Source: Pseudomonadota bacterium (GTDB lineage: Bacteria; Pseudomonadota; Alphaproteobacteria; Sphingomonadales; Sphingomonadaceae). From it: a stretch of 37,334 nt of DNA. Shown here piece after piece: positions 17,381 to 32,381 of this stretch. The stretch is from contig JAFECL010000033.1 of NCBI GenBank assembly GCA_018242165.1, positions 1-37,334 on the forward strand, written 5' to 3'. The notes beneath the pieces were generated by a model. It made no database searches and was not told the origin of the DNA. It was given only the letters and a program-made list of their open reading frames with translations. Numbering within the stretch: position 1 is the stretch's first letter; every line of letters starts with the position of its first letter. Both the position numbers and the translations under genes were made by a program.

Positions 17381-19270
17381 ATGGGGCTGCGGAAAACGAC
17401 GATCGCGATGTTGCTGCTGGGGACCGCCACGCTGGCGGGTTGCGACCGGCTGGCATCGGGCCCGGCCGATGACAGCAAGATCGCCGAAACGGCGGTGCCC
17501 GAAAAGGTGCTGTGGGGCGATACCCACCTGCATACCGGCAACTCGGTCGATGCCTTCGGTTTCGGCAACCGCCTCAGCCCCGAAGACGCGCTGCGCTTCG
17601 CCAAGGGCGAGGAGGTGACTTCGAGCACCGGGATCAAGGCCAGGCTGGAGCGCCCGCTCGACTTCCTGGTGGTGACCGACCATGCCGAGGGGCTGGGGGC
17701 AACCAAGGCGCTGTACGATGCCCCGGCCTTCATGATCCGCGATCCGCAGATGAAGCGCTGGCGCGAACTGATGCACCAGGGCCCGGCGGGGTCGCTGCGG
17801 GCCACCGCCGAAATGCTGCTGGCGCGGATGAGCGGCAAGCTGCCCGCGGCAATGATGGACAAGCAGGCCTCGGCCAAGCGTACCCGTTCGATCTGGGAAG
17901 CGCATATCCGCACGGTTGACCGCTATTACGACCCGGGCAAGTTCACGTCGCTGCTCGGCTTCGAATATACCCTGATGGAAGGCGGCAACAACCTGCACCG
18001 CAACGTCATCTTCCGCGACAATGGCGACAAGGTGCGGCAGGTCGATCCGCTCGATCCGACCAAGGAAATCTTCCCCGATCAGCTGTGGGCCTACATGGAC
18101 GCCTACGAGAAGAAGACCGGGGGCAAGGTGCTGGCCATCCCGCACAATTCGAACCTCTCGAACGGGCTGATGTTCATGCTGACCGAGCCCAACGGCGGGC
18201 CGATGAGCGCAGCCTATGCCCGCCGGCGCGCGGCGCATGAACCGGTGGTCGAAATCACCCAGATGAAGGGTGACAGCGAGAGCCACCCGTTCCTTTCGGG
18301 CAACGACGAGTTCGCCGGCTATGGCACGGTGGGCTGGGATACCAACAACCTCGCCAACAACCAGCCGATGAAGCCGGGCGACTATGCCGGCTCCTACGTG
18401 CGCGAGGCGCTGAAGCGCGGCCTGATGATCGCGCAGCGGACCGGGGTGAACCCCTATCAGTTCGGCGTGATCGGTTCGACCGACAGCCACACCGCGCTTT
18501 CGGCGGTGGAGGAAGACAATTTCTTCGGCAAGCATCCGGGGGTGGAGCCCAGCGCGCACCGCGCCACCGATGGCTTCATTCCGGGGATGCCCAGCGGGCG
18601 GATGAACTGGCAGTCGCTGGCCAGCGGCTATGCCGCGGTCTGGGCCAAGGCCAATACCCGCGGCGCGATCTGGGATGCGCTGATGCGCCGCGAGGTCTAT
18701 GGCACCACCGGCCCGCGCATGGTGGTGCGCTTCTTCGGCGGCTGGGGCTTTACGCCTGAGATGCTGAAGGGCGACTGGGTTCACGCAGGCTACAAGGACG
18801 GGGTGCCGATGGGCGGCACGCTGCCGGCGGGCAAGGGCGGCAAGCCCAGCTTCATCGTTTCGGCGCTGAAGGATCCCAAGGGGGCCAACCTCGACCGGGT
18901 GCAGGTGGTGAAAGGCTGGACCGATGCCGCCGGCAAGAGCCACGAAAAGGTCTTCGATGTCGCCTGGTCGGACCCCGAGCATCGCAAGCTGGTGGGCGGC
19001 AAGCTGCCCAAGGTGGGCGATACCGTCGACACCGACAAGGCCACCTACCAGAACAGCATCGGCGCCGCGTCGCTGGCCACGGTGTGGACCGATCCGGAAT
19101 TCAACGCCGCCCAGCACGCCTTCTATTACGTGCGGGTGCTGGAAATCCCGACCCCGACCTGGGTGGATTTCGACAAGGTCAAATACCACCTCAACCTGGG
19201 CAAGGAGATCCCGCTGAAGCAGCAGGAGCGCGCCTATACCTCGGCGATCTGGTACAGCCCGGCACACTGA
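17381..19270 (+). CDS. DUF3604 domain lipoprotein
   Basis: A 629-residue secreted lipoprotein. The signal peptide MGLRKTTIAMLLLGTATLAG ends in a lipobox with C21 as the lipidated residue. The mature protein matches DUF3604, a family of unknown function with PHP-like metal-binding motifs: GDTHLHTGNSVDAFGF near the start, FLVVTDHAEGLG, AIPHNSNLSNG, and GSTDSHTALSAVEEDNFFGK late in the protein. A metal-dependent hydrolase at the periplasmic face is a reasonable inference. ATG 17381 is chosen over an in-frame TTG at 17375 because AGGAGG is well spaced for it. First gene of an operon with a parvulin and a HupE-like protein. Confidence 0.85.
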   Translation: MGLRKTTIAMLLLGTATLAGCDRLASGPADDSKIAETAVPEKVLWGDTHLHTGNSVDAFGFGNRLSPEDALRFAKGEEVTSSTGIKARLERPLDFLVVTDHAEGLGATKALYDAPAFMIRDPQMKRWRELMHQGPAGSLRATAEMLLARMSGKLPAAMMDKQASAKRTRSIWEAHIRTVDRYYDPGKFTSLLGFEYTLMEGGNNLHRNVIFRDNGDKVRQVDPLDPTKEIFPDQLWAYMDAYEKKTGGKVLAIPHNSNLSNGLMFMLTEPNGGPMSAAYARRRAAHEPVVEITQMKGDSESHPFLSGNDEFAGYGTVGWDTNNLANNQPMKPGDYAGSYVREALKRGLMIAQRTGVNPYQFGVIGSTDSHTALSAVEEDNFFGKHPGVEPSAHRATDGFIPGMPSGRMNWQSLASGYAAVWAKANTRGAIWDALMRREVYGTTGPRMVVRFFGGWGFTPEMLKGDWVHAGYKDGVPMGGTLPAGKGGKPSFIVSALKDPKGANLDRVQVVKGWTDAAGKSHEKVFDVAWSDPEHRKLVGGKLPKVGDTVDTDKATYQNSIGAASLATVWTDPEFNAAQHAFYYVRVLEIPTPTWVDFDKVKYHLNLGKEIPLKQQERAYTSAIWYSPAH

Positions 19271-19276
19271 TCCGGC

Positions 19277-20107
19277 GTGAGCGACTGGCGTGACAGGCTG
19301 CGGCGGCTGCTGGCCGAGCCGCTGGTGCATTTCCTGCTGGCCGGGGCCGTGGTCTACGCCCTGCTGGCCGGCCGCGCGCCCGACCTTGGCGAACGGCGGA
19401 TCGTGGTCGACCGGGCGGTGGCCGAGGCGCTGGTCCAGCGCTTTGTCGAGGCCTTTCACCGCCCGCCCGACCAGGGCGAAATCGACGGGCTGATCCGCGA
19501 CCACGTGGCCGATCAGGTCTATTACCGCGAAGCGCTGCGTCTGGGGCTGGACAAGGACGACGAGGTGGTGGTGCGGCGGATGCGGCGCAAGCTGGAGCAG
19601 GCCGCCGCCAGCGATGCCGAAACCCGCACCCCGTCGGATGCCGAACTGCAGGCGCTGATCGACAAGGATCCGGCACGCTATGCCGCCGAGCCGCGCCTGT
19701 CGTTCGAGCAGGTCTATCTTGGGGCCGACAATCCCGCGATCCGGGCGCAGGCCCCCGCGCTGCTGCGCCAGCTGGCCTCCGGGCAGCGGGTCGATGGCGT
19801 GCCGGCACCGCTGGAGCGGGTCCATACGGGCGAGGATAGCGCGACGATTGCCGCCGGCTTTGGCGATGAATTCGCCGTGGCGCTGGCCAGCCAGCCGGTC
19901 GGATCGTGGCACGGGCCGGTCAAGTCGGGGCTGGGGCTGCATCTGGTGCGGATCACTGCGCGTACCGCCAGCGCCAAACCGGTGCTCGCCAAGGTGCGCC
20001 AGCGGGTCGAGAACGACTGGCGCGCCGCCGCCGTGCGCGATGCCCAGGCCCGCGACTATGCCCGGATGGCCAAGGGCTATGACATCGTGATCGAGCCGGG
20101 CCATTGA
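19277..20107 (+). CDS. Parvulin-type peptidyl-prolyl isomerase, membrane-anchored
   Basis: A 276-residue protein with GTG start 6 bp after the DUF3604 stop. It has an N-terminal membrane anchor or signal (LLAEPLVHFLLAGAVVYALLAG), a SurA/PpiD-like helical chaperone region (residues about 40-130, YYREALRLGLDKDDEVVVRR) and a parvulin-like domain ending VGSWHGPVKSGLGLHLVRIT. It probably helps fold exported proteins, perhaps its operon partner. Whether isomerase activity is retained cannot be judged, as the parvulin core looks divergent. Confidence 0.75.
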   Translation: MSDWRDRLRRLLAEPLVHFLLAGAVVYALLAGRAPDLGERRIVVDRAVAEALVQRFVEAFHRPPDQGEIDGLIRDHVADQVYYREALRLGLDKDDEVVVRRMRRKLEQAAASDAETRTPSDAELQALIDKDPARYAAEPRLSFEQVYLGADNPAIRAQAPALLRQLASGQRVDGVPAPLERVHTGEDSATIAAGFGDEFAVALASQPVGSWHGPVKSGLGLHLVRITARTASAKPVLAKVRQRVENDWRAAAVRDAQARDYARMAKGYDIVIEPGH

Positions 20108-21099
20108 TCCCTGCCCGGCAAGTGATCCTGCGGCTGCTGCTGGGCCTGCTGCTGGTGCTGGGCGCCGGCTCGGCGCAGGCGGATGAATTGCGCCCCGGCT
20201 ATCTCGCGCTGACCCAGCGCGATGCCACCCATTGGGAGATGATCTGGAAGGCCCCGGTGCTGGGCGGCCTCGCCACCCGGGCCCACCCGCGCCTGCCGGC
20301 TTTTTGCGTTGCTGCTCCGCCGCAGGCCCGGCTGGACGGCGCCGCGCTGGTCACGGTTTCAGCGGTGACCTGCAGCCGCTCGCTGGCGGGGGCCACAGTG
20401 GCGCTGGATGGTATCGAGGCCAGCTTTACCGATGCCCTCGTCCGGGTGGCCCCGCTCAACGCCCCGGTCCAGGCCGAACGGCTGACGGCGCGACGCCCGG
20501 CGATGACCGTGGCCAGCACCCCCAGCCGCTGGGAAGTGGCGCGCACCTACCTGATGCTGGGCATCGAACACATCCTGACCGGCTACGATCACCTGCTGTT
20601 CGTGGTGTCGCTGGTGCTGCTGCTGGGGCAATTGTGGGTGGTGGTGCGTGCCGCCACCGCCTTCACCATTGCCCATTCGCTGACCCTGGCCGGCACCACG
20701 CTGGGGCTGATCGGGCTGGCGCAGGCCCCGGTCGAGGCGCTGATCGCCCTGTCGATCGTGTTTCTCGCGGTGGAGGTGGTGAAGCTCGATCCGGCCCACC
20801 CGCGCCTGTCGACCCGGGTGCCGTGGCTGGTGGCCTTCGGCTTCGGGCTGATCCACGGCTTCGGCTTTGCCGGGGCGCTGCGCGAAATCGGCCTGCCGCA
20901 GGGCGAGGTGCCGGTGGCGCTGGCGACCTTCAATGTCGGGGTGGAGCTGGGCCAGCTGGTGATCGTCGGGCTGACCCTGGCGGCGATGGCGCTGGTTCGG
21001 CACTTCGCCAGCCGCGCGCTGCGCCCGGCGGTCCGCGCGGCGGCCTATGCCATCGGGACCACCGCCAGCTTCTGGTTCCTGCAACGGCTGATAGGTTAG
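20104..21099 (+). CDS. HupE/UreJ-family membrane protein
   Basis: A 331-residue protein, TTG start overlapping the upstream stop (TTGA). A signal peptide (LRLLLGLLLVLGAGSAQA) precedes a periplasmic domain of about 120 residues, then six or more transmembrane helices of the HupE/UreJ_2 type: EHILTGYDHLLFVVSLVLLL contains the family H-x(n)-G-x-DH signature, and AFGFGLIHGFGFAGALREIG is the second hallmark. Related HupE/UreJ proteins are nickel or cobalt permeases; for this subfamily, fused to a periplasmic domain, the substrate is unknown. Its stop overlaps that of the convergent AraC-type regulator gene. Confidence 0.8.
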   Translation: MIPARQVILRLLLGLLLVLGAGSAQADELRPGYLALTQRDATHWEMIWKAPVLGGLATRAHPRLPAFCVAAPPQARLDGAALVTVSAVTCSRSLAGATVALDGIEASFTDALVRVAPLNAPVQAERLTARRPAMTVASTPSRWEVARTYLMLGIEHILTGYDHLLFVVSLVLLLGQLWVVVRAATAFTIAHSLTLAGTTLGLIGLAQAPVEALIALSIVFLAVEVVKLDPAHPRLSTRVPWLVAFGFGLIHGFGFAGALREIGLPQGEVPVALATFNVGVELGQLVIVGLTLAAMALVRHFASRALRPAVRAAAYAIGTTASFWFLQRLIG

Positions 21100-22073
21100 T
21101 GCCCCTGCCGGTCGGCGCTGGGGGGCAGGCCGAAGTGCTGGCGATAGGCCCGGGCGAAGTGGGCTGCTGAGGCAAAGCCGGTGGCCACCGCGATCTGCAA
21201 CAGTGGCAGCGCCGTCTGGCGGGCAAGGTGGCGGGCGCGGGTCAGCCGCAGGGTCAGGTAGTGCCGCGCCGGCGTCGCGTGGAGGTGCTGGTGAAACAGC
21301 CGCTCCAGCTGGCGCAGCGACAGGCCGGCGTGGGCCGCAACCTCGGCCGGGGTCAGCGGCACCTCAAGGTTGGCTTCCATCGCCTCCAGCGCGGCAAGCA
21401 GCCCGGCATGGTGCACCCCGGTCCGTTCGGGCAGAGACAGCCGCTGGGGGGCCGCGCCTTCGCGGGTGTGGGGGTGGAGCATCTGCTCGGCCACGGTAAC
21501 CGCCAGATCACGGCCGCAGTCGCGCGCGATGAAATGCATCATCAGGTCAAGCGGCGCGGTGCCGCCCGAGCAGGTGAACCGGTCGCGATCGACCTCGAAC
21601 AGGCGGCGCGAGACATCCAGCTGGGGGAAATTTTCGGCAAAGCTGTCAAGGTCTTCCCAGTGGATCGTGCAGCGATAGCCATCGAGCAGCCGGGCCCGGG
21701 CAAGCAGCACGCTGCCGGTGCAGACCGCCCCCAGCACCGCCCCGCCGCGCAGCGCCCGGCGCAGCGCCGCGCCCAGCGCCGGGCTGTCGTAGCGCGCGGG
21801 GTTCAAGCCGGCGCAGATCACCAGCGCATCCTCGTTCCCCGCCGCTGCCGGGCCATCGACCTGCACCGCGACGCCGTTGCTGGCGGTGACCGCCGCCCCG
21901 GTCAGGCTGGCGGTGCGCCAGTGGTAGAGCAGCTGGCCGCTCATCCGGTTGGCCACCCGCAGCGGTTCGATCGCCGAGGTGAAGGCGATCATCGAGAATT
22001 CGGGCATCAGCAGGAAGGTAAACCGGCGCGGGCCGCTGGGTGTTCGGGGGCCGGGGGCAACTGATTTTGGCAT
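21096..22073 (-). CDS. GlxA/GbdR-type AraC-family transcriptional regulator
   Basis: A 325-residue regulator with an N-terminal class I amidotransferase-like ligand domain (FTFLLMPEFSMIAFTSAIEP at the start; AVCTGSVLLARARLLDG as the nucleophile-elbow-like segment) and a C-terminal AraC double HTH (VAAHAGLSLRQLERLFHQHL and IAVATGFASAAHFARAYRQH). The architecture is that of GbdR, CdhR and ArgR, which sense glycine betaine/dimethylglycine, carnitine and arginine. This fits a quaternary-amine substrate for the divergent operon. The start is ATG 22073 or, three codons upstream, ATG 22082. The much longer open frame upstream is antisense to the corrinoid gene and is not used. Confidence 0.88.
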   Translation of the reverse strand: MPKSVAPGPRTPSGPRRFTFLLMPEFSMIAFTSAIEPLRVANRMSGQLLYHWRTASLTGAAVTASNGVAVQVDGPAAAGNEDALVICAGLNPARYDSPALGAALRRALRGGAVLGAVCTGSVLLARARLLDGYRCTIHWEDLDSFAENFPQLDVSRRLFEVDRDRFTCSGGTAPLDLMMHFIARDCGRDLAVTVAEQMLHPHTREGAAPQRLSLPERTGVHHAGLLAALEAMEANLEVPLTPAEVAAHAGLSLRQLERLFHQHLHATPARHYLTLRLTRARHLARQTALPLLQIAVATGFASAAHFARAYRQHFGLPPSADRQGH

Positions 22074-22208: not shown

Positions 22209-22895
22209 ATGAGCGACGGCGAAGAAATCATTCTCCGGGATCTGAGCGACGACGATCTGGTCGAACAGATGAAGGATGACCTTTACGACGGCCTCGCCGA
22301 CGAGGTGCATGAGGGCACCACCATCCTGCTCGAGCGTGGCTGGGACGCCAACACCGTGCTGTCCGAAGCGCTGGTCGAGGGCATGCGGATCGTTGGCCTC
22401 GATTTCCGCGACGGCATCCTGTTCGTGCCCGAAGTGCTGCAGTGCGCCGGGGCGATGAAGGCGGGCATGGAGCTGCTCCGCCCGATCCTCGCCAACAGCG
22501 ATTCCAAGGCTAGCCTTGGCACCTACGTGATCGGCACCGTGAAGGGTGACATTCACGACATCGGCAAGAACCTGGTCGGCATGATGCTGGAAGGCGCCGG
22601 TTTCGAGGTGGTCGACCTGGGGATCAACAACCCGGTCGAGAACTATCTTGCCGCGATCGACAAGCACAATCCGGCGATCCTCGGCATGTCGGCGCTGCTG
22701 ACCACCACCATGCCCTACATGGGCGTCGTGATCGAGGAGCTCGACAAGCGCGGCATCCTCAAGAACCTGCCGGTGATGGTCGGCGGTGCGCCGCTGAACC
22801 AGGAATTCGCCGATGCGATCGGCGCCCATTCCTATGGCCGCGACGCCGCGATGAGCGCCGAGCTGGCCAAGGCTCTGGTCGGCCGCAACCACTAA
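22209..22895 (+). CDS. Corrinoid protein (MtbC/MtgC-like methyl carrier)
   Basis: Binds a B12-type cofactor and carries the methyl group between two methyltransferases. The 228 residues have the two expected domains: an N-terminal four-helix cap (LVEGMRIVGLDFRDGILFVPEVL) and a C-terminal Rossmann-like B12 domain with the base-off/His-on motif D114-I-H116-D-I-G119, then GMSALLTTTM and MVGGAPLNQEFA. H116 is the predicted lower axial cobalt ligand. The N-terminus is strikingly acidic (MSDGEEIILRDLSDDDLVEQ). ATG 22209 is preferred over an in-frame ATG at 22089 because family similarity starts here and AAGGA lies upstream. The stop shares a base with the DUF1638 start (TAATG). Confidence 0.93.
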   Translation: MSDGEEIILRDLSDDDLVEQMKDDLYDGLADEVHEGTTILLERGWDANTVLSEALVEGMRIVGLDFRDGILFVPEVLQCAGAMKAGMELLRPILANSDSKASLGTYVIGTVKGDIHDIGKNLVGMMLEGAGFEVVDLGINNPVENYLAAIDKHNPAILGMSALLTTTMPYMGVVIEELDKRGILKNLPVMVGGAPLNQEFADAIGAHSYGRDAAMSAELAKALVGRNH

Positions 22896-23632
22896 TGCGC
22901 GATTCCGTCGCCCGCCGGAGCGGTGGCCGCGAGGCCCGGCTGGGCCGCCGGGCCCGGCCGCAGGAAGCCGAGGCGGTCGCGCCGGAACTGCTCGTCACCA
23001 CCAGCGCCAACCCGGATGGGCCGGCGCTGGTGCTGGCCTGCGGGGCGATTGCCAACGAGATCATCGCGCTGCGCGAGCAGCTGGGCATTGCCGACGAGAC
23101 CATGGTGCTGCACTGCCTGCCGGCCGAGCTGCACAATCGCCCCGGCCAGATCGCGCCGCGGGTGGATGCCTTCCTGTCCGAGCATCGCCACAAGTATTCG
23201 CGGGTGCTGCTGGGCTATGGCGACTGTGGCACCGGCGGGGCGCTCGACAAGGTGCTGGCGCGGCACGAGGCCGAGCGGCTGCCGCACATGCATTGCTACG
23301 AATTCTTCGCCGGCACCCCGCGCTTCACCCGGATCGCCGAGGCCGAGGTCGGCAGCTATTTCGTCACCGATTTCCTCGTCCGCCATTTCGACAAGCTGGT
23401 GTGGGAAGGCTGCGGCCTCGATAAGCGGCCCGAAATGCTCGAAACCTTTTTCGGCAACTATCGCGACCTGGTCTACCTGGCCCAGACCGACAATCCGGCC
23501 CTGGAGGACAAGGCGCGCGAGGCTGCGGCGCGGCTTGGCCTCAACTACGTCTATCACAAGGTCGGCTATGGCGATCTTGCGGAAGCGATCCGCAAGGTTG
23601 CGCCGCCCGCTGCGGAGGCTGGCCATGTATAA
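22895..23632 (+). CDS. DUF1638 family protein
   Basis: A 245-residue protein of DUF1638, a family of unknown biochemical role that recurs beside corrinoid methyltransferase genes in methanogens and alphaproteobacteria. The N-terminal ~35 residues are basic and low-complexity (MRDSVARRSGGREARLGRRA). The conserved part begins near residue 44 (LVLACGAIANEIIALREQLG) and has Cys/His-containing motifs LHCLPAELHNRPG, LLGYGDCGTGG and HMHCYEFFAG that could bind metal or cofactor. Translation is coupled to the corrinoid gene by a 1-bp overlap, and its end overlaps metV by 8 bp, implying stoichiometric expression. A role in corrinoid or folate handling is inferred only from context. Confidence 0.85.
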   Translation: MRDSVARRSGGREARLGRRARPQEAEAVAPELLVTTSANPDGPALVLACGAIANEIIALREQLGIADETMVLHCLPAELHNRPGQIAPRVDAFLSEHRHKYSRVLLGYGDCGTGGALDKVLARHEAERLPHMHCYEFFAGTPRFTRIAEAEVGSYFVTDFLVRHFDKLVWEGCGLDKRPEMLETFFGNYRDLVYLAQTDNPALEDKAREAAARLGLNYVYHKVGYGDLAEAIRKVAPPAAEAGHV

Positions 23633-24080
23633 GGTGCGGTTGTGGTCGGTGAAGCATTCGCGCGGGATGGAGCGGCTGTACCATGCCACCAATCCGCTGG
23701 TGCTGGGGCTGATGCGGGGCCTGACCCGGCTGTTCGGCCATCGGCTTGACCGGCCGATCACCGCGCTCGAGGCCGGGGTCAAGGGCTTCCTGTTCGATTG
23801 CAAGATGTGCGGCGATTGCGCCCTCTCCAAGACCGGCATGTCGTGCCCGATGAATTGCCCCAAGACCATCCGCAACGGCCCCTGCGGCGGGGTGCGCGAG
23901 AACGGGATGTGCGAGGTCAAGCCCGAGATGCGCTGCGTCTGGGTCGCGGCCTGGGATGGCGCCAGCCGCATGCAGCACGGCGATGCGATCAAGAACGTCA
24001 ATTTCGCGGTCGACCACCGGCGCAAGGGCACGTCGAGCTGGCTGAAGCTGGCGCGGGAGGACAGCGATGCTGCGGCCTGA
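23625..24080 (+). CDS. metV: MetV-like methylenetetrahydrofolate reductase zinc/Fe-S partner subunit
   Basis: A 151-residue protein matching the MTHFR C-terminal/MetV family. The hallmark is a cysteine cluster about residues 60-95: CKMCGDCALSKTGMSCPMNC, then GPCGGVRENGMCEVK. In acetogens MetV partners MetF and is needed for methylene-THF reductase function. Here it overlaps DUF1638 by 8 bp and metF by 14 bp, so MetV-MetF probably form the complex that oxidises methyl-THF. The N-terminal ~45 residues (VKHSRGMERLYHATNPLVLG) are typical of the alphaproteobacterial form. The reading frame extends further upstream, but only inside DUF1638, so ATG 23625 is used. Confidence 0.85.
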   Translation: MYKVRLWSVKHSRGMERLYHATNPLVLGLMRGLTRLFGHRLDRPITALEAGVKGFLFDCKMCGDCALSKTGMSCPMNCPKTIRNGPCGGVRENGMCEVKPEMRCVWVAAWDGASRMQHGDAIKNVNFAVDHRRKGTSSWLKLAREDSDAAA

Positions 24081-25083
24081 GGAAGCGGGGCTGAACCCCG
24101 GCGATCCGCTGCCGATCCTGCCTGGCCATGTCAGCGGCGGGCGGTTCGAACGGGTGTTGCGGGCCGGCCATTTCGCCATCACCACCGAAATCGCTCCGCC
24201 GGATTCGGCCGACCCCGATGAGGTGCTGCGCCGCGCTCACCTGTTCGATGGCCATGTCGACGCGATCAATGCCACCGACGGTTCGGGCGCGCATTGCCAT
24301 ATGTCGAGCCTTGCGGTCTGCGCGATTCTCACCCGGGTGGGCTATTCGCCGATCATCCAGATCTCGTGCCGTGATCGCAACCGCATCGCGATCCAGGGCG
24401 ATGTGCTGGGGGCGGCGGCGTTGCGGGTCGGCAATGTGCTGTGCCTGTCGGGCGACGACGTATCGGTGGGCGATCATCCCGAGGCCAAGCCGGTGTTCGA
24501 CTTCGACTCGGTCACGCTGCTCCAGACCATCCGCACCCTGCGCGATGAGAGCCGCTTCCTTTCGGGTCGCAAACTCGATCTGCCGCCGCAGATGTTCCTC
24601 GGCGCCTCGATCAACCCTTTCGCGCCGCCTTATGCCAACCGGGTCGACCAGTTTGCCAAGAAGGTCGCGGCCGGGGCCGAATTCGTCCAGTCGCAGTATT
24701 GCTTCGATCTTGCCATGGCGCGCGATTTCATGGCTCGCGCCCGCGACCTGGGGCTGACCGAGCGTTGCTTTACCCTGATGGGGGTGGGGGTGCTGGCCTC
24801 GGCCAAGACCGCCAAATGGCTGCGCAGCGCGATCCCCGGGGTGCATATTCCCGACGAGGTGATCCGCCGGCTCGAGCAGGCCGAAAAGCCCAAGGCCGAA
24901 GGGCGCCGCATCGCGGTCGAACTGATGCAGCAGCTGGCCGAGATCGAAGGGATCAACGGCATCCACCTGATGGCCTTCAAGCAGGAAGAATTCGTCGGCG
25001 AGATCGTCAAGGCCTCGGGCGTGCTGGGCAGCCGCAAGCCCTGGGCCCCCGAATTTCCGCTCGTTCCCACCCCATCCAAGTAA
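24067..25083 (+). CDS. Methylenetetrahydrofolate reductase family protein (MetF)
   Basis: A 338-residue flavoprotein of the MTHFR family with a TIM-barrel fold. Visible segments are HFAITTEIAPPDSADPDEV (start of the barrel with the conserved Glu), GSGAHCHMSSLAVCAILTRV, PIIQISCRDRNRIAIQGDVL, VLCLSGDDVSVGDHPEAKPV, and GAEFVQSQYCFDLAMARDFM. In this cluster it should run in the oxidative direction, methyl-THF to methylene-THF. It ends 17 bp before the pterin-binding methyltransferase gene. It is probably distinct from any biosynthetic metF elsewhere in the genome, since it is paired with MetV. Confidence 0.88.
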   Translation: MLRPEEAGLNPGDPLPILPGHVSGGRFERVLRAGHFAITTEIAPPDSADPDEVLRRAHLFDGHVDAINATDGSGAHCHMSSLAVCAILTRVGYSPIIQISCRDRNRIAIQGDVLGAAALRVGNVLCLSGDDVSVGDHPEAKPVFDFDSVTLLQTIRTLRDESRFLSGRKLDLPPQMFLGASINPFAPPYANRVDQFAKKVAAGAEFVQSQYCFDLAMARDFMARARDLGLTERCFTLMGVGVLASAKTAKWLRSAIPGVHIPDEVIRRLEQAEKPKAEGRRIAVELMQQLAEIEGINGIHLMAFKQEEFVGEIVKASGVLGSRKPWAPEFPLVPTPSK

Positions 25084-25100
25084 GCCCTAAGGATCACACC

Positions 25101-26009
25101 ATGGCCCGCACCGTTCTCAGTTCCGCCACCAAGGAAGTCATCATCGGCTTCGATCAGCCGTTCGTGATGATTGGCGAACGCATCAACCCCACGGGCCGCA
25201 AGCTGCTCGCTGCCGAGATGAAGGAAGGCAATTACGACCGCGTCGTGGCCGATGCCCTGGCCCAGGTCGAGGCGGGGGCGCAGATGCTCGACGTCAATGC
25301 CGGCATCCCGCTGGCCGACGAGCCGCGGATCCTGGCCGAGGTGGTCCAGCTGGTCCAGTCGGTCACCGATGTGCCGCTGTGCATCGACAGCTCGATCATC
25401 GAGGCGCTGGAGGCCGGCCTGTCGGTCTACAAGGGCCGCGCGCTGGTCAACTCGACCACCGCCGAGGAAGAGGTGATGGAGCGCGTCCTGCCGCTGGTGA
25501 AGAAGTACGACGCCGCCGTGGTGGCGATCTCGAACGACGATACCGGCATCTCGCAGGACATCGACGAACGCTTCCGCATCGCCAAGCTGATCGTCGAGCG
25601 CGCGCAGGATCATGGGATCAAGAAGGAAGACGTCGTGGTCGACCCGCTGGTGATGCCGATCGGCGCGATCAACCAGGCCGGCAAGGACGTGTTCCGCTTC
25701 GTCCGCCGCCTGCGCGAGGAACTGGGCGTCAACACCACCTGCGGCGCCAGCAACATCGGCTTTGGCCTGCCCAACCGCCACGCCATCAACAACAGCTTCC
25801 TGCCGATGGCCGCCTGCGCCGGGATGACCAGCGCGATCCTCAATCCGCTGCACGAAGGCCTGGTCCCGGCGATCAAGGCGGCCGACACGCTGAACGGGGT
25901 CGATCCCAATTGCGCCAACTGGATCAAGATGTTCCGCGAGCCCGCCCCGGAAGGCGCCGGCGCGCGCGGCGGCCGCGGTGGCCGCGAAGGGCGCCGGCGG
26001 CGCGACTGA
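25101..26009 (+). CDS. Methylcorrinoid:tetrahydrofolate methyltransferase (pterin-binding, MtgA/AcsE-like)
   Basis: A 302-residue protein of the dihydropteroate-synthase-like pterin-binding fold. Motifs: FVMIGERINPTGRKLLAAEM, AGAQMLDVNAGIPLADEP, PLCIDSSIIEALEAGL, ALVNSTTAEEE and TTCGASNIGFGLPNRHAIN, all typical of the methyl-THF:corrinoid methyltransferases (AcsE, MtgA, MtvA). It is predicted to move the methyl group between the corrinoid protein and THF. AAGGA precedes the ATG. The last ~18 residues are an unusual Gly/Arg-rich tail (GARGGRGGREGRRRRD) beyond the usual domain end. Confidence 0.9.
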   Translation: MARTVLSSATKEVIIGFDQPFVMIGERINPTGRKLLAAEMKEGNYDRVVADALAQVEAGAQMLDVNAGIPLADEPRILAEVVQLVQSVTDVPLCIDSSIIEALEAGLSVYKGRALVNSTTAEEEVMERVLPLVKKYDAAVVAISNDDTGISQDIDERFRIAKLIVERAQDHGIKKEDVVVDPLVMPIGAINQAGKDVFRFVRRLREELGVNTTCGASNIGFGLPNRHAINNSFLPMAACAGMTSAILNPLHEGLVPAIKAADTLNGVDPNCANWIKMFREPAPEGAGARGGRGGREGRRRRD

Positions 26010-26024
26010 GCCGAGCCTGTCGCC

Positions 26025-27971
26025 ATGACCAGCCCCGCCACCCACCGGGTGATCTTCACCCCGTCCGGCATCCGTGCCGAAGCCGCCGAAGGCCAAAGCG
26101 TCTATGAAGTCGCGCTGGCCTCCGGGGTCGACATCCAGTCGATCTGCGGGGGCAAGGGCCTGTGCCGGCGCTGCCAGATCGAGGTGTCGGAGGGCGATCA
26201 CGCCAAGTACGGGGTCAAGGTTTCGGCCGACCACCTGAGCGGCTGGACCGACAGCGAGGAAAAGGCCGCCAAGCGGGGCGATCTGAAGCCGGGCCGGCGC
26301 CTCGCCTGCCGTGCCCAGGTCTGCGGCGACGTGGTGATCGCGGTGCCCGAAGACGCGCGCGAGAACCGCAGCACCATCTCGAAGGCCAGCACGGGCTTTA
26401 CCACCGCGCACGATCCCGCCGTGCGGCTGCACATGTGCGAGCTGCCCGAGCCGCAGCTGGACGACAACCCCAGCGATGCCGAGGCGCTGGAGGCGGCGCT
26501 GGCTGCGCTGGGCGTACAGGCCCGGCCCAGCCACCACGTGCTGATGAAGCTGCAGCCGCTGCTGGCGAAGAACGAGCGTGCGCTGATCGCGGTGGTGCGC
26601 GACGGGGCCGAGGTGGTCGATGTCTGGCCGCCCAGCCAAGCCGATGCCTATGGCGTGGCGATCGACATCGGCAGCACCAGCCTGGCGCTGTACATCTACG
26701 ACCTGACCCGGGGCGACCTGGTCCACGAGGCTTCGGCGATGAACCCGCAGATCCGCTACGGCGAAGACGTGATGGGCCGGGTCTCGTACATCATGATGAA
26801 CAAGGGCGGCGAAGCGGCGCTGACCGGCGAGGTGCGCGGCCAGATCGCCAAGATGCTGGGCGAGGCCTGCGCCAAGCTGGGCATCACGGCCGAGCAGGTG
26901 CTCGAACTGGTCGCGGTGGGCAATCCGATCATGCACCACCTGTTCTGGGGCATCAATCCGGTCGAACTGGGGCAGGCCCCGTTCACCCTGGCGGTGAAGG
27001 ACTGGTTCGAGGCGCCGGCGGCGGGGATGGAGCTGGGCATTTCGCCCGCCGCCCGGGTCGCGACGCTGCCACTGGTGGGCGGGCATGTCGGTGCCGATAC
27101 CACCGGGGCCTATCTCACCCAGCTGGACCGGATGGCGGGCAAAAGCGCCCTGCTGGTCGATATCGGCACCAACGCCGAGATCGTGCTGAGCCACAACGGG
27201 CGGGTTGCCGCCTGTTCGTCGCCCACCGGCCCGGCTTTCGAAGGCGCCGAGATCAGCGCCGGGGTGCGCGCCACGCCGGGGGCGATCGAGCGGGTGCGGA
27301 TCGACCGCGAGAGCTTCCAGCCCACCGTGCGGATCATCGGCCACGATCAGTGGCTGGGCGATGCCGAGCCCGAGGAACTGGCCCGCCACCGTGTGCCGGG
27401 GATCTGCGGTTCGGGGATCTTTGAGGTGATGGTCGAGCTGGCCAGCTGTGGCCTGATCGACGCCGGCGGCCTGTTCCGGCCCGAAATGGCGCCGCACCGC
27501 TTTGTTCAGGAAGGGCAGAGCTGGAAATTCCTGCTGGTCGACCGGCCGGAAAACCCGATCTGGGTCAAGCAGACCGACGTGCGCGCGGTGCAGCTGGCCA
27601 AGGCGGCGCTGGCCGCCGGGGTGCGGCTGCTGGTCGATTTCCTGGATTGCCCGGCCTTCGACGAGGTGTTGCTGGCGGGGGCCTTCGGCACCCATCTCGA
27701 CAGCAGCTATGTCGCCGATATCGGGATCATCCCCGGCGCGAGCGCCGGACAGATCCATTCGATCGGCAATGCCGCCGGCATGGGCGCGGCAATGTGCCTG
27801 GTGAACCGCGCCGAAAAGCAGCGGATCATCGACGCGGTGCGCCATATCGAAAAGGTCGAAACGGCGACCGAACCCAAGTTCCAGCAATATTTCGTCGAGG
27901 CGATGCGCTTCCCCACGGCCCCCGAAAGCGGCGGCGGTGAAGGGCGGCGCGGGCGTCGGCGGCAGCGTTAA
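26025..27971 (+). CDS. Reductive activator of corrinoid enzymes, RACo-like (2Fe-2S + ASKHA, DUF4445)
   Basis: Uses ATP to drive one-electron reduction of inactive Co(II) corrinoid back to Co(I). The 648 residues contain an N-terminal plant-type [2Fe-2S] ferredoxin domain with ligands C41, C47, C50 and C95 (SICGGKGLCRRCQIEV and RLACRAQVC), a middle linker domain, and two ASKHA (DUF4445) subdomains from about residue 210: GVAIDIGSTSLALYIYDL, VAVGNPIMHHLFWGINP, ALLVDIGTNAEIVL, GICGSGIFEVMVEL and VLLAGAFGTHLD. This is the RACo layout, not the RamA layout with C-terminal 4Fe-4S clusters. A Gly/Arg-rich C-terminal tail (GGGEGRRGRRRQR) is present. It lies 15 bp after the methyltransferase gene and 16 bp before mttB. 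Confidence 0.9.
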   Translation: MTSPATHRVIFTPSGIRAEAAEGQSVYEVALASGVDIQSICGGKGLCRRCQIEVSEGDHAKYGVKVSADHLSGWTDSEEKAAKRGDLKPGRRLACRAQVCGDVVIAVPEDARENRSTISKASTGFTTAHDPAVRLHMCELPEPQLDDNPSDAEALEAALAALGVQARPSHHVLMKLQPLLAKNERALIAVVRDGAEVVDVWPPSQADAYGVAIDIGSTSLALYIYDLTRGDLVHEASAMNPQIRYGEDVMGRVSYIMMNKGGEAALTGEVRGQIAKMLGEACAKLGITAEQVLELVAVGNPIMHHLFWGINPVELGQAPFTLAVKDWFEAPAAGMELGISPAARVATLPLVGGHVGADTTGAYLTQLDRMAGKSALLVDIGTNAEIVLSHNGRVAACSSPTGPAFEGAEISAGVRATPGAIERVRIDRESFQPTVRIIGHDQWLGDAEPEELARHRVPGICGSGIFEVMVELASCGLIDAGGLFRPEMAPHRFVQEGQSWKFLLVDRPENPIWVKQTDVRAVQLAKAALAAGVRLLVDFLDCPAFDEVLLAGAFGTHLDSSYVADIGIIPGASAGQIHSIGNAAGMGAAMCLVNRAEKQRIIDAVRHIEKVETATEPKFQQYFVEAMRFPTAPESGGGEGRRGRRRQR

Positions 27972-27987
27972 GGAAAGGACCAGTATC

Positions 27988-29523
27988 ATGTCGAGAGCAG
28001 GACGCACCGGGGGCCGTTCGGGCCGCGCTGCCGCCACCGCCGCCGATGCCGCACCGCGCCAGGCCTATATCACCCGGGCGATCCCGCCCTATTCGGTGCT
28101 GGGCGATGCCGATCTGGAAATCCTCGAACAGAACGCCGATACGATCCTCGAGGAGATCGGAATCGACATCAAGGATGATCAGGAAAGCATTGATATCTTT
28201 GTTGCAGCTGGCGCCAAGGCCGACGGCGTGCGGGTGCGCTTTCCGCGTGGCATGCTGCGCGAGATCGTCCAGAACAACGCGCCCAAAATTTTCACCCAGC
28301 ACGCCCGCAACCCGGCCAATTCGGTGCAGATCGGCGGCAAGGCCACGGTGCTGGTGCCGGCCTATGGTTCGCCCTTCGTCTACAGCCGCGAAACCGGGCG
28401 CCGGTACGCCACGATCGAGGATTTCCGCAATTTCGTGAAGCTGGCCTACATGGCCGACAGCCTGCACCATTCGGGCGGGACGATCTGCGAGCCGGTCGAC
28501 CTGCCGGTCAACAAGCGCCACTACGATATGGTCTACAGCCATATCAAATACAGCGACAAGGCCTTCATGGGCTCGGTCACTCACCCGCAGCGCGCCGAGG
28601 ATTCGGTGAGCATGGCCAAGATCGTCTTCGGCGAGGATTTCGTCGAAGAGAACTGCGTGATGGTCAACCTGATCAACGCCAACTCGCCGCTGACTTTCGA
28701 TGCCACCATGCTGGGGGCGCTGAAGGTCTATGCCCGGCATAACCAGGCGACGATGATCAGCCCGTTCATCGTCGCTGGGGCGATGTCGCCCGTCACGGTG
28801 GCGGCGGTCGCGGCGCAGAGCCTGGCCGAGGGCCTGGTCGGCATGGCGCTGGCCCAGCTGGTGCGCCCGGGCGCGCCGGTGATCTACGGCAACTTCGTTT
28901 CGTCGATGTCGATGCAGTCGGGCGCGCCCACGTTCGGCACGCCCGAGGCCTCGCTGATCCTCAACTGTGGCGCGGCGCTGGCCCGCCGGCTGGGCGTTCC
29001 GTTCCGCAGCGCGGGCGGCTTCACCGGCAGCAAGGTGTCGGACGCGCAGGCGGCCTACGAGGCGGCCAACACCCTGCAGCAGGGCCTGCTGGCGGGCGTG
29101 AACTTCATGCTCCACACCGCGGGCTGGCTCGAGGGCGGGCTGGCCATGGGCTATGAGAAGTTCGTGATGGACTGTGATCAGGCGGCGATGATGGCGGTCT
29201 ACGCCAAGGGCGTCGACATGAGCGCCAACGGCCAGGCGATGGACGCGCTGCGCGAGGTTGGGCCGGGGCAGCATTTCCTTGGCTGCAGCCATACCCAGGC
29301 CAATTTCAAGAGCGCCTTCTACCGTTCGACCGTGGCCGACAACAACAGCTACGAACAGTGGGTGGAGGACGGCAAGCTGGATGCCGAGCAGCGCGCCGAG
29401 CGGCTCTACAAGCAGCTGCTGGCCGACTATCAGCCGCCCGAACTCGATCCCGAAATCGACGCCAGGCTGGTTGCGTTCATGGAAACGGCCAAGGCCAGCT
29501 TCCCGGATTCGAACATCAGCTAG
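27988..29523 (+). CDS. Non-pyrrolysine MttB-family trimethylamine/betaine:corrinoid methyltransferase
   Basis: A 511-residue member of the MttB superfamily, predicted to demethylate a quaternary or tertiary amine onto the corrinoid protein. Typical stretches: ILEQNADTILEEIGIDIKDD, RFPRGMLREIVQNNAPKIFT, VPAYGSPFVYSRETGRRY, GGTICEPVDLPVN, PLTFDATMLGALKVYA. The loop where archaeal MttB has amber-encoded pyrrolysine reads GGFTGSKVSDAQAAYE, with an ordinary valine codon (V350), so it belongs with the MtgB, MtpB and MtcB type enzymes acting on glycine betaine, proline betaine and carnitine. The substrate here is undetermined. The N-terminus is Arg/Gly-rich (MSRAGRTGGRSGRAAATAAD), as in related alphaproteobacterial proteins. 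It ends with a normal TAG stop. Confidence 0.93.
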   Translation: MSRAGRTGGRSGRAAATAADAAPRQAYITRAIPPYSVLGDADLEILEQNADTILEEIGIDIKDDQESIDIFVAAGAKADGVRVRFPRGMLREIVQNNAPKIFTQHARNPANSVQIGGKATVLVPAYGSPFVYSRETGRRYATIEDFRNFVKLAYMADSLHHSGGTICEPVDLPVNKRHYDMVYSHIKYSDKAFMGSVTHPQRAEDSVSMAKIVFGEDFVEENCVMVNLINANSPLTFDATMLGALKVYARHNQATMISPFIVAGAMSPVTVAAVAAQSLAEGLVGMALAQLVRPGAPVIYGNFVSSMSMQSGAPTFGTPEASLILNCGAALARRLGVPFRSAGGFTGSKVSDAQAAYEAANTLQQGLLAGVNFMLHTAGWLEGGLAMGYEKFVMDCDQAAMMAVYAKGVDMSANGQAMDALREVGPGQHFLGCSHTQANFKSAFYRSTVADNNSYEQWVEDGKLDAEQRAERLYKQLLADYQPPELDPEIDARLVAFMETAKASFPDSNIS

Positions 29524-29560
29524 GGCGGAACGGGCGAAGGCGCGCGATGGAGGTGCGGCC

Positions 29561-30547
29561 ATGAGCAGGCAGGGTCAGCTACCGGCGAACTTCGAGTTCC
29601 GGGCGCTGCAGGTCTTTGTCACCACCGCCGAACAGGGCGGGATGACCAAGGCCGCGCAGGTGCTGGGGCTGACCCAGTCGGCGGTGTCGCAGACCATTGC
29701 CGCGCTGGAAGAGGCGGTCGGCAAGCAGCTGTTCGACCGCGCGGTGCGCCCGATCGTGCTGACCGGCGCCGGCCATGCCCTGTTCGGCCACGGCCAGCGG
29801 ATCCTGGCCGACGTACGGCAGGCCTACATCGAAGCGAGCGAGATCGACCGGGGCGAGCTGGCCTCGCTGACCATCGGCATGCCGGAAAGCCTGGCGAACG
29901 TGCTGGGGCCACGGCTGTACCGGCGGCGGCCCGAGCTGGCCAAGTTCTGGCGCATCTCGAACGGCCTGACGCCTGACCAGCGGGCGCGCTTCAACAGCCA
30001 CGCCGCTGACCTGATGATCACCGAGGAAAGCAACGTTTCCGACATGATCGAGGTGGAACGGCACCTGCTGTTCACCGAACCTTACGTGCTGATCTTCCCC
30101 AAGGATTTCAGCCTGCCCACCGAACTGGGGCCGCATCTGGCCGATAGCCGCTTCATCCGCTTTTCGCTGCGCAGCTCGGCCGGGCGGCAGACCGAGGCGC
30201 AGCTCAACCGGCTGCAGCTGAAATTCCCGGCGCAGATCGAGTTCGATTCGGTTTCGGGCCATGCCATGGCGGTGGCCTATGGTCTTGGCTGGGGCATCTC
30301 TACCCCGCTGTGCCTGTTCCAGGTGCCGGGGATTTTCGACCAGATACAGGTTCGCCCGATCGTGCGTGGTGCCTTCGGGCGGCGGATGACGCTGATCGCC
30401 CGGGCCGCGGCGCTGGGCAACACACCGGCCATCGTCGCGGGCGAGGCCCGGGCGGTGTTGCGTGACGAGGTTTTCCCGCAACTGCAGGAGGCGCTGCCGT
30501 GGCTCGACGGTACGCTGGCCCTGGGGGACAGCGCGGGGCGGTATTAG
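29561..30547 (+). CDS. LysR-family transcriptional regulator
   Basis: A 328-residue LysR-type regulator. The N-terminal winged HTH (about residues 12-70) is clear: FEFRALQVFVTTAEQGGMTK, AAQVLGLTQSAVSQTIAALE, VGKQLFDRAVRPIVLTGAG. The C-terminal periplasmic-binding-protein-like effector domain follows (LASLTIGMPESLANVLGP; VSGHAMAVAYGLGWGISTPL). GGAGG lies just upstream of the ATG. Unlike most LysR genes it is not divergent but lies within the catabolic run between mttB and fhs, so it may be co-transcribed with them. It gives the cluster a second regulator; its ligand is unknown. Confidence 0.9.
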   Translation: MSRQGQLPANFEFRALQVFVTTAEQGGMTKAAQVLGLTQSAVSQTIAALEEAVGKQLFDRAVRPIVLTGAGHALFGHGQRILADVRQAYIEASEIDRGELASLTIGMPESLANVLGPRLYRRRPELAKFWRISNGLTPDQRARFNSHAADLMITEESNVSDMIEVERHLLFTEPYVLIFPKDFSLPTELGPHLADSRFIRFSLRSSAGRQTEAQLNRLQLKFPAQIEFDSVSGHAMAVAYGLGWGISTPLCLFQVPGIFDQIQVRPIVRGAFGRRMTLIARAAALGNTPAIVAGEARAVLRDEVFPQLQEALPWLDGTLALGDSAGRY

Positions 30548-30631
30548 GCGGCGTGATGGCGGCGATCAGATTGGGGCGGCGGCGATGCCGGGCCTAGGCT
30601 GATCGCGGCAGATCGCGCAGAATTCAAGGCA

Positions 30632-30647
30632 GGCGGCCCAGGCCGCC
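30632..30647 (+). other. Hairpin upstream of fhs
   Basis: Inverted repeat GGCGGCC-CA-GGCCGCC in the 133-bp gap between lysR and fhs, about 35 bp before the fhs ATG. There is no U-tract. It could attenuate read-through or shape the fhs leader. I see no clear promoter hexamers in the gap. Confidence 0.3.
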
Positions 30648-30680
30648 CATAGCAAGGGAGGGGGCACGGCCCCGATACGC

Positions 30681-32381
30681 ATGGCACAAGATCATCTTCC
30701 GCCCCCGGGGGCACCCGACATCGATATTGCCCGCGCCGCGCGGATGCAGCCGATCCTGCCGCTGGCCAAGGCCCGGCTGGGGATCGACCCCGAGGCGCTG
30801 GTCCCCTATGGCCACCACAAGGCCAAGCTGAGCCTCGATTTCGTGGCCGAAACCCGCAGCCGCAAGAACGGCAAGCTGGTGCTGGTGACGGCGATCACCC
30901 CGACCCCGGCGGGCGAGGGCAAGACCACCACCTCGGTCGGGCTGGCCGATGGCCTCAACAAGATCGGGGTCAACACCATGGTCTGCCTGCGCGAGCCGTC
31001 GCTGGGTCCGTGCTTCGGAATGAAGGGCGGCGCCGCTGGCGGCGGTCGCGCCCAGGTCGTGCCGATGGAAGACATCAACCTGCACTTCAACGGCGATTTC
31101 CACGCGATCACTTCGGCCCACTCGCTGCTGGCTGCGCTGATCGATAACCATCTCCAGTGGGGCAACGAGCTCAACATCGATCCGCGCCGGATCGTCTGGC
31201 GCCGTGTGGTCGACATGAACGATCGGGCGCTGCGCAACATGGTGATCGGCCTGGGCGGCGCGGCCCACGGCATCCCGCGCGAAACCGGGTTCGACATCAC
31301 CGTCGCCTCGGAAATCATGGCGATCCTGTGCCTCGCCACCGACATCAAGGACCTCCAGCGGCGTCTGGGCGATATCATCATCGCCCGCACCCGCACGAAG
31401 GAGCCGGTGACCGCGCGTCAGCTGGGCGCTGACGGGGCGATGGCGGTGCTGCTCAAGGATGCGCTGCTGCCCAACCTGGTGCAGACCATCGAGAACAACC
31501 CCGCCTTCATCCACGGCGGTCCGTTCGCCAATATCGCTCACGGCTGCAACTCGGTGATGGCGACGCAGACCGCGCTGAAGCTGGCTGACGTGGTGGTGAC
31601 CGAGGCCGGTTTCGGTGCCGACCTGGGCGCCGAGAAGTTCATCGACATCAAGTGCCGCCAGTCGGGCCTGCGCCCCGACGCCGTGGTGCTGGTGGCGACG
31701 ATCCGCGCGCTGAAGATGCAGGGCGGCGTTGCCAAGGATGCGCTGGGCACCCCCGACGTGGCCGCGCTGAAGGCCGGGGCGGTCAACATCATCCGCCACA
31801 TCGAGAACCTCAAGAAGTTCGGCCTGACCCCGGTGGTGGCGATCAACCACCGCGTTGACGATGCCGCCGAGGAAGTCGAAGCGCTGAGGGCGATTTGCGC
31901 CGAGCAGGGCGTCAAGGTCGCGCTGGCCCGCCACTGGGCCGAGGGCGGTGCCGGGGCGGTCGAGCTGGCCGAGGCCGTTCAGGCACAGCTGGCCGAGGGT
32001 TCGGCCGAGGTGAAGATGCTGTACCCGGACGAGCTGTCGCTGGCCGACAAGATCGCCACCATCGCGCGCGAGATCTATCGCGCCGACGGGATCAGCCTGG
32101 GCGGCGACACCGCGCGCCAGCTGAAGGAGTTCGAGAAGCTGGGCTATGGCCACCTGCCGGTGTGCATCGCCAAGACGCAGTATTCGTTCTCGACCGACCC
32201 GACCAAGATCGGCGCGGCCACCGGCCACACCGTGGAGGTGCGCGAAGTGCGCCTTTCCGCCGGTGCGGGCTTCGTCGTGGCGGTCTGCGGCGACATCATG
32301 ACCATGCCCGGGCTGCCCAAGCGGCCCGCCGCGATGGACATCAAGCTGGATGACAAGGGCGAGATCGTCGGCCTCGCCTAG
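30681..32381 (+). CDS. fhs: Formate-tetrahydrofolate ligase Fhs
   Basis: Interconverts formate + THF + ATP with 10-formyl-THF + ADP + phosphate. The 566 residues are close to the family length. Motifs: [20 protein letters not shown] (nucleotide-binding loop), [60 protein letters not shown] and [20 protein letters not shown]. Next to MetF/MetV and the methyltransferases it probably works in reverse, releasing formate and making ATP from methyl groups that enter the folate pool. Sphingobium uses a comparable LigM-MetF-LigH route for lignin O-methyl groups. A GGGAGGGGG-type ribosome binding site precedes the ATG. No folD is in the window. Confidence 0.95.

Follow-up and report, generated by a model that had tools for sequence, protein, structure and literature searches.

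A probable aerobic operon of the MtgBCD type for glycine betaine demethylation, with a GbdR-like regulator, in a Novosphingobium-like bacterium

We analyzed a cluster of corrinoid- and folate-dependent genes on contig JAFECL010000033.1 of assembly GCA_018242165.1; the whole contig, 37,334 nucleotides long, is referred to as the window. The genome (2.59 Mb in 115 contigs, the window being contig 42; 83.6% complete, 0.15% contamination) very probably belongs to a Novosphingobium, whose relatives suggest an aerobic life. The cluster probably represents an aerobic, cobalamin-dependent glycine betaine demethylase operon of the MtgBCD type, equipped with a GbdR-like regulator and serving catabolism. 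This reading builds on gene content, conserved sites, synteny, co-occurrence and the presence of MetH, FolD and a locus resembling those for B12 uptake elsewhere in the genome, besides earlier genetic and proteomic work on Ruegeria pomeroyi and Phaeobacter inhibens. From these we infer the regulation, the substrate in the host, the direction of MetF and Fhs, the gain of ATP and a catabolic role over one in methionine synthesis.

As the original prediction had claimed, nine genes between positions 22209 and 32381 form a single rightward run on the plus strand, and all nine families were matched in that order by Pfam or NCBIfam profiles (Table 1). Up to mttB, neighboring genes overlap or are at most 20 bases apart, followed by gaps of 37 bases before the LysR gene and 133 bases before fhs. 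The starts given for mttB, metV and mtgD were revised and are probable ones, chosen by start codon and spacing. A divergent gene on the minus strand, encoding a GbdR-like AraC-family regulator, had been overlooked and should be included in the cluster. For comparison, at least 596 pattern matches to mttB were obtained from a scan of genome contigs and at least 571 of them were confirmed; the best 80 of 571 were used. Their hosts include Novosphingobium, Maritalea, Hellea, Henriciella, Arenicella, Halieaceae and SAR324 records. Forty-five of the 80 loci extend at least 9 kb on either side of mttB (hereafter well-flanked). At least four of six partner genes were found near mttB in 33 of the 45 (41 of all 80), and all six in 26 of the 45. 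The core gene order recurs in related genomes; together with the profile matches, this rules out a chance run of open reading frames.

The proteins predicted to transfer the methyl group are well conserved. His116 of the corrinoid protein MtgC (numbered from the ATG at 22209) lies within the DxHxxG motif, as had been noted before, and is at least 95% conserved in 46 sequences including that of the window. MtgC, MtgD and MttB are 67%, 64% and 63% identical, respectively, to their homologues in Sinorhizobium meliloti. Against the NCBIfam models for MtgC of the Desulfitobacterium hafniense type, the window MtgC scored below both cut-offs (203 bits versus 370 for NF047996 and 154 bits versus 310 for NF047995). 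The best PDB match of MttB was 4yyc, followed by 2qne (E = 4.3e-131), termed MtgB in PMC9842639, and 9yce (E = 1.9e-130), which carries the name glycine betaine methyltransferase. Phe334 of the MttB query (residue 345 from the ATG at 27988) aligned to X334 of 7xcl, the Pyl334 position, ruling out a pyrrolysine-type MttB.

The window also encodes proteins for the oxidation of the methyl group. Seven cysteines of the MetV-like protein (Cys 62, 65, 74, 78, 87, 96, and 104) are at least 95% conserved in 41 sequences, and the protein is 56% identical to its S. meliloti homologue. The window MetF2 reached only 54 bits against a cut-off of 294 for TIGR00676, the family of ordinary NAD(P)H-dependent MetF, in contrast to the MetF gene product linked to MetH on contig C93, which scored 326 bits; at the same time, MetF2 is 62.5% identical to the metF product of the homologous S. 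meliloti cluster. A second MetF, as expected of an aerobic MtgBCD system, is therefore present in addition to the ordinary one, and it probably runs in the oxidative direction. FolD is encoded on contig C44. For fhs, the window copy was the single match in the assembly. Linkage of fhs to the core is not general: it lies near mttB in 9 of the 45 well-flanked loci (11 of all 80), and the window is the only sphingomonad copy in which the two are linked. In Maritalea and Hyphomonadaceae-type records (L028, L030, L033-L036, L038, L039), fhs is located directly upstream of mtgC, unlike in the window, where it stands at the far end of the cluster, past the LysR gene. The latter gene also lies outside the conserved core: two of 85 loci gave matches over nearly its full length (46% and 30% identity), and there is a fragment (65%) at the end of locus L025, 9.7 kb past mttB, where it is broken off by the locus end.

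Reactivation of the corrinoid may involve two further proteins. The RACo-like protein matched the Pfam C-terminal (1.5e-73), middle (7.2e-45), linker (1.3e-13) and Fer2 (1.6e-7) domains, and its ferredoxin-type cysteines C41, C47, C50, and C95 are at least 95% conserved in 49 sequences. In the DUF1638 protein, C49, H80, C111, H133, and C134 are invariant across 41 sequences; of the 38 loci having both its gene and mtgC, 36 have the two no more than 600 bases apart. In Phaeobacter inhibens, methionine rescues mutants of either the RamA-like or the DUF1638 gene, tying these partners genetically to B12 function in that organism (PMC5764234). As excerpted, that study makes no specific proposal for the role of DUF1638, and excerpts of PMC12478193 name it only as a predicted participant in cobalamin recharging. 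A confident AlphaFold2 model of the window protein (mean predicted local distance difference test 87.2, predicted template modelling score 0.77) gave no Foldseek match in the PDB at E ≤ 0.001 (best 0.015; first matches with template modelling scores of 0.19-0.30). Since no match was significant, deriving a function from the fold was set aside. DUF1638 is a probable, still unsolved partner in corrinoid upkeep, as its conserved residues and gene neighborhood suggest.

Taken together, these families and sites support the route that the original prediction had outlined, in which demethylation proceeds through corrinoid and folate, the methyl group is oxidized and an activator of the RACo type takes part. 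In the proposed pathway, (i) MttB, acting as MtgB, would demethylate glycine betaine to dimethylglycine, the methyl group going to Co(I) on MtgC; (ii) MtgD would pass the methyl group from MtgC to tetrahydrofolate (THF); (iii) MetF and the MetV-like protein would oxidize methyl-THF to methylene-THF; (iv) FolD would convert the latter to formyl-THF; (v) Fhs, operating in reverse, would release formate, perhaps yielding ATP; and (vi) the RACo-like ferredoxin-ATPase, together with DUF1638, would return air-oxidized Co(II) to Co(I). Cobalamin for MtgC would probably be imported. Import is proposed because one cobalamin riboswitch was detected near genes scoring best, below the models' cut-offs, as a BtuB-like B12 receptor and BtuC, and because no match to CbiC/CobH was found in the assembly; this suggests that the host scavenges cobalamin. 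None of the ten locus proteins scanned with profiles matched carbon monoxide dehydrogenase/acetyl-CoA synthase, for which no aimed genome search was made.

The substrate, which had been left open between several methylated compounds, can be narrowed further than the original prediction allowed. Glycine betaine appears best supported, based on (i) the GbdR-like regulator; (ii) the betaine genes that neighbor the homologues in S. meliloti and Azoarcus; (iii) sarcosine oxidase- and dimethylglycine dehydrogenase-like genes in the genome and near related mttB genes; and (iv) its being the proven substrate of the published system. The regulator scored 317 bits against NF052371, with the runner-up family FtrA at 160 bits, about half of that score, and a GbdR-like gene was found near mttB in 25 of the 45 well-flanked loci (33 of all 80). 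An operator shared by this gene and mtgC was also considered, but the intergenic alignment was uninformative and the idea was set aside. The closest plasmid-borne MttB homologue, on an Azoarcus plasmid, adjoins genes for a choline-binding protein, betA, betB and folD. A dimethylglycine-dehydrogenase- or sarcosine-oxidase-like gene, two queries with a common domain that can match each other's genes, occurs near mttB in 23 of the 45 well-flanked loci (27 of all 80). In the host, contig C47 (L018 and L019; 16001-53913) carries genes for two fused FAD/GcvT proteins and two sarcosine oxidase sets, with both SoxB and one of the two SoxA proteins above cut-off. The same region contains a choline-dehydrogenase-like GMC enzyme, glycine C-acetyltransferase and threonine dehydrogenase, and forms a dense region of N-methyl amine catabolism.

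A catabolic role is favored because the genome retains complete MetH next to an ordinary metF, showed no orthologue of MtgE and carries sarcosine oxidase genes on another contig. MetH, on contig C93, is divided into two genes and retains the activation domain (PF02965, 369 bits). The two PF02574 proteins of the genome are MetH itself and a protein 27% identical to S. meliloti Bmt, so that no MtgE orthologue was found. The cluster should therefore not be needed for methionine synthesis. The original prediction, sound as to the demethylation route, had overlooked that the same parts have a published role as a methionine synthase. MtgC, MtgD, RACo and DUF1638 could accordingly be read as a split methionine synthase, since methionine synthesis in P. 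inhibens requires the same four components (PMC5764234) and MtgC and MtgD of Ruegeria pomeroyi are dual-function proteins (PMC12478193). In the window's genome, however, MetH has not been replaced and a homocysteine-binding MtgE partner was not found, on which grounds this was rejected as the main role; the linked MttB, second MetF and Fhs do not fit it either. We thus regard a main role in methionine synthesis as very improbable here.

Several observations weigh against catabolic glycine betaine demethylation as the function of the cluster. The GbdR-like protein stays below the curated cut-off of 480 bits and can only be called GbdR-like, and regulators related to GbdR respond to other ligands. 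The sarcosine and dimethylglycine genes are on a different contig from the cluster. Moreover, contig C47 encodes two GbcA-like Rieske proteins (296 and 411 bits, below the cut-off of 670), and glycine betaine could instead be demethylated by such an oxygenase; an oxygenase route for betaines may also coexist with the cluster. In ten of the 45 well-flanked loci, all six partners are missing from the surroundings of mttB, and fhs is absent from all eight other sphingomonad loci examined (L025-L027, L029, L115-L118). At 83.6% completeness, the absences of MtgE and CobH from the assembly are weak evidence. Finally, two further MttB homologues on contig C76 (L020, 28001-42158), one 54% and the other about 24% identical to the window copy, could include the betaine enzyme.

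The last point leads to an alternative in which the same machinery serves another quaternary amine (proline betaine, carnitine, gamma-butyrobetaine or another), glycine betaine being left to the C76 MttB. The 54% copy is 58% identical to S. meliloti MttB, little under the 63% of the window copy, and Eubacterium relatives of MttB vary by substrate, with several sharing one corrinoid protein (PMC12478193, PMC12155760). On the other hand, it is the window MttB, not the C76 copy, that lies in an mtg operon beside a GbdR-like gene, as in all four other genomes of the family with DUF1638. We consider this alternative unlikely. No corrinoid protein was found on C76 among the assembly's PF02310 matches. 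The MttB homologue of about 24% identity shares its stretch with genes for a hydantoinase/caprolactamase-like protein and a member of the dihydrodipicolinate-synthase family.

A further alternative is O-demethylation of methoxyaromatics, which the original prediction had listed, or the use of another non-amine methyl donor; Novosphingobium often degrades aromatics. Against this, no other substrate-methyltransferase family was matched among the ten locus proteins profile-scanned, and the MttB-superfamily enzymes named in passages of PMC12478193, PMC9842639 and PMC12155760 act on methylated amines; the chloromethane enzyme CdmB is described as close to O-demethylases (PMC13222342). The chance that the cluster acts on a non-amine donor thus seems slim, and glycine betaine remains the preferred substrate.

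The distribution of the cluster was assessed in 387 genomes of the class (at least 90% completeness asked for, the window's own genome added). DUF1638, taken as the marker of the cluster, was found in 78 of them, the RACo C-terminal domain in 93 (92 above cut-off) and MTTB in 85. RACo accompanies DUF1638 in 77 of the 78 genomes, as does MTTB, and genomes without DUF1638 make up 16 of the RACo-bearing and 8 of the MTTB-bearing ones. Fisher tests of this co-occurrence take no account of how closely the genomes are related. In the family Sphingomonadaceae, DUF1638 was detected in 5 of 397 genomes, the window's own counted. The set is thus rare in the family, in line with its having been called unusual for the lineage, but more frequent in the class. 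Nor is it surprising in an aerobe, as had been supposed, since marine bacteria living aerobically, and S. meliloti, already have such systems described (PMC12478193, PMC5764234). In the four remaining family genomes with DUF1638, the order is always a divergent GbdR-like gene, mtgC, DUF1638, metV, metF, mtgD, RACo and mttB, and the cluster is also present in genome G255, of the same genus as the window's genome. These eight genes also occur in locus L029, from the Novosphingobium record Fuku2-ISO-50, which bears no label of a metagenome-assembled genome.

In a tree built from four concatenated proteins (39 rows, made up of the window plus the 38 loci with all four genes), the eight sphingomonad rows clustered with a support of 0.67. 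They represent seven genomes, as L026 and L115 apparently belong to one. This group adjoins the Maritalea and Hyphomonadaceae-type copies in a joint group with a support of 0.999. None of thirteen genes flanking the cluster in the window was found in the eight other sphingomonad loci, two of which end close upstream of the cluster and none of which, even on the longer side, continues for more than about 10 kb after mttB. Grouping of the sphingomonad copies, differing flanks and presence in 5 of 397 genomes would suit a single acquisition in the family, after which the cluster moved or was lost, while moderate support and few copies leave room for other histories. The G+C content of the cluster (66.9%) is close to that of the window (67.7%); a foreign composition was therefore ruled out, and composition gives no evidence of recent import. 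Two contigs of a Marinicaulis metagenome-assembled genome (L031, L032) carry metF-mtgD-RACo-mttB stretches that are near-identical by their scores against the window, reflecting duplication or a mixed assembly.

A more far-reaching and tentative proposal, on which we would not rely, joins two elements: DUF1638 might be an undescribed corrinoid-upkeep protein of alpha/beta type, binding a metal or cluster through its Cys and His residues and acting with the RACo-like activator and MtgC to keep a free-standing Co(I) methyltransferase working in air, and the whole module might be a self-contained catabolic cassette, uncoupled from the synthesis of methionine, that moves between genomes of Novosphingobium. 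The cluster also brings into sharper focus the role of DUF1638, a protein with invariant Cys and His residues, near-constant company of RACo and MttB and no significant PDB match. Should the same set occur in a cultured relative, a host with an intact MetH would allow the parts played by MtgC, MtgD, RACo and DUF1638 in demethylation to be studied without methionine auxotrophy.

Table 1. Predicted features of the cluster, with window coordinates and main profile matches
Feature	Coordinates	Strand	Profile evidence
GbdR-like AraC-family regulator with DJ-1/PfpI domain, divergent	21096..22007	-	NF052371, E 1.3e-94; HTH_18; DJ-1_PfpI
mtgC, corrinoid-binding protein	22209..22895	+	PF02607 B12-binding cap, 1e-14; PF02310 B12-binding domain, 5.8e-25
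DUF1638 protein, probable partner in corrinoid upkeep	22895..23632	+	PF07796, 1.2e-27
MetV-like small subunit, Cys-rich	23625..24080	+	PF12225 (DUF5981, MetF C-terminal/MetV type), 2.2e-26
metF2, divergent-subfamily methylene-THF reductase	24067..25083	+	PF02219 (MTHFR), 2.6e-29
mtgD, methyl-THF/corrinoid methyltransferase	25101..26009	+	Pterin_bind, 4.5e-30; NF005719, 3.3e-109, 364 bits (cut-off 259)
RACo/RamA-like corrinoid reductive activator, N-terminal 2Fe-2S domain	26025..27971	+	PF14574, PF17651, PF17650, PF00111, all above cut-off
mttB/mtgB, non-pyrrolysine MttB-superfamily quaternary amine:corrinoid methyltransferase	27988..29523	+	PF06253, 2e-218
LysR-type regulator, outside conserved core	29561..30547	+	PF00126 HTH, 4.1e-20; PF03466
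fhs, formate-THF ligase	30681..32381	+	FTHFS, 6.5e-263; NF010030, 896 bits (cut-off 652)

Directly upstream of the cluster (17381-21099), the window contains in series genes for a DUF3604 protein, a PPIC-type peptidyl-prolyl isomerase and a HupE/UreJ-family membrane protein. This row was not found beside the other sphingomonad copies within the stretches examined.

Among known systems, the cluster most directly recalls MtgBCD of R. pomeroyi, a system that serves both glycine betaine demethylation and methionine formation (Mausz et al. 2025, PMC12478193). Both comprise an MttB-family MtgB (pfam06253), the corrinoid protein MtgC, the pterin-dependent MtgD, a RACo/RamA-like protein, DUF1638 and MetF2, with the MtgB, MtgC and MtgD homologues lying together in the window. 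In R. pomeroyi, the genes are scattered and MtgC and MtgD double as methionine synthase, whereas the window holds them in one run with genes for a MetV-like protein and Fhs, and its host has kept MetH; MetV, Fhs and GbdR are not named in the main text of PMC12478193, as excerpted. The same study describes MtgBCD-type genes as often co-located in other marine bacteria and reports MtgBCD in 28 of 239 metH-bearing genomes, so that MetH and MtgBCD in one genome are not new.

The bmt locus of S. meliloti (CP090106.1, annotated pSymB) encodes homologues of RACo, MtgD, MetF, the MetV-like protein, DUF1638, MtgC and MttB, seven proteins 42-67% identical to those of the window. It differs in gene order and strand layout and has bmt/MtgE and a glycine betaine/proline ABC transporter gene nearby. 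A Formyl_trans_N-family gene (L113 10755-11564) lies inside its mtg region, with no fhs annotated in the stretch, and perhaps offers an alternative disposal of formyl-THF. The split methionine synthase of P. inhibens likewise has a corrinoid and a pterin component together with RACo-like and DUF1638 proteins (Price et al. 2018, PMC5764234); its methyl group goes to homocysteine, whereas MttB, a second MetF and Fhs in the window point to catabolism. The MtgB/MtgA/MtgC system of D. hafniense also relies on an MttB-family glycine betaine methyltransferase, to which the 2qne and 9yce matches refer. That organism is an anaerobe whose MtgC models the window MtgC does not reach, and PMC12478193 sets aerobic MtgC apart from D. 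hafniense MtgC. Novosphingobium was not named among the matches listed in a literature search for such a system in this genus. We therefore view the cluster as a known system, published in 2025 for marine bacteria, in a new and less usual host: the marine pathway for glycine betaine, an abundant osmolyte, would extend to sphingomonads, in which it seems to have been acquired and to run apart from the synthesis of methionine.

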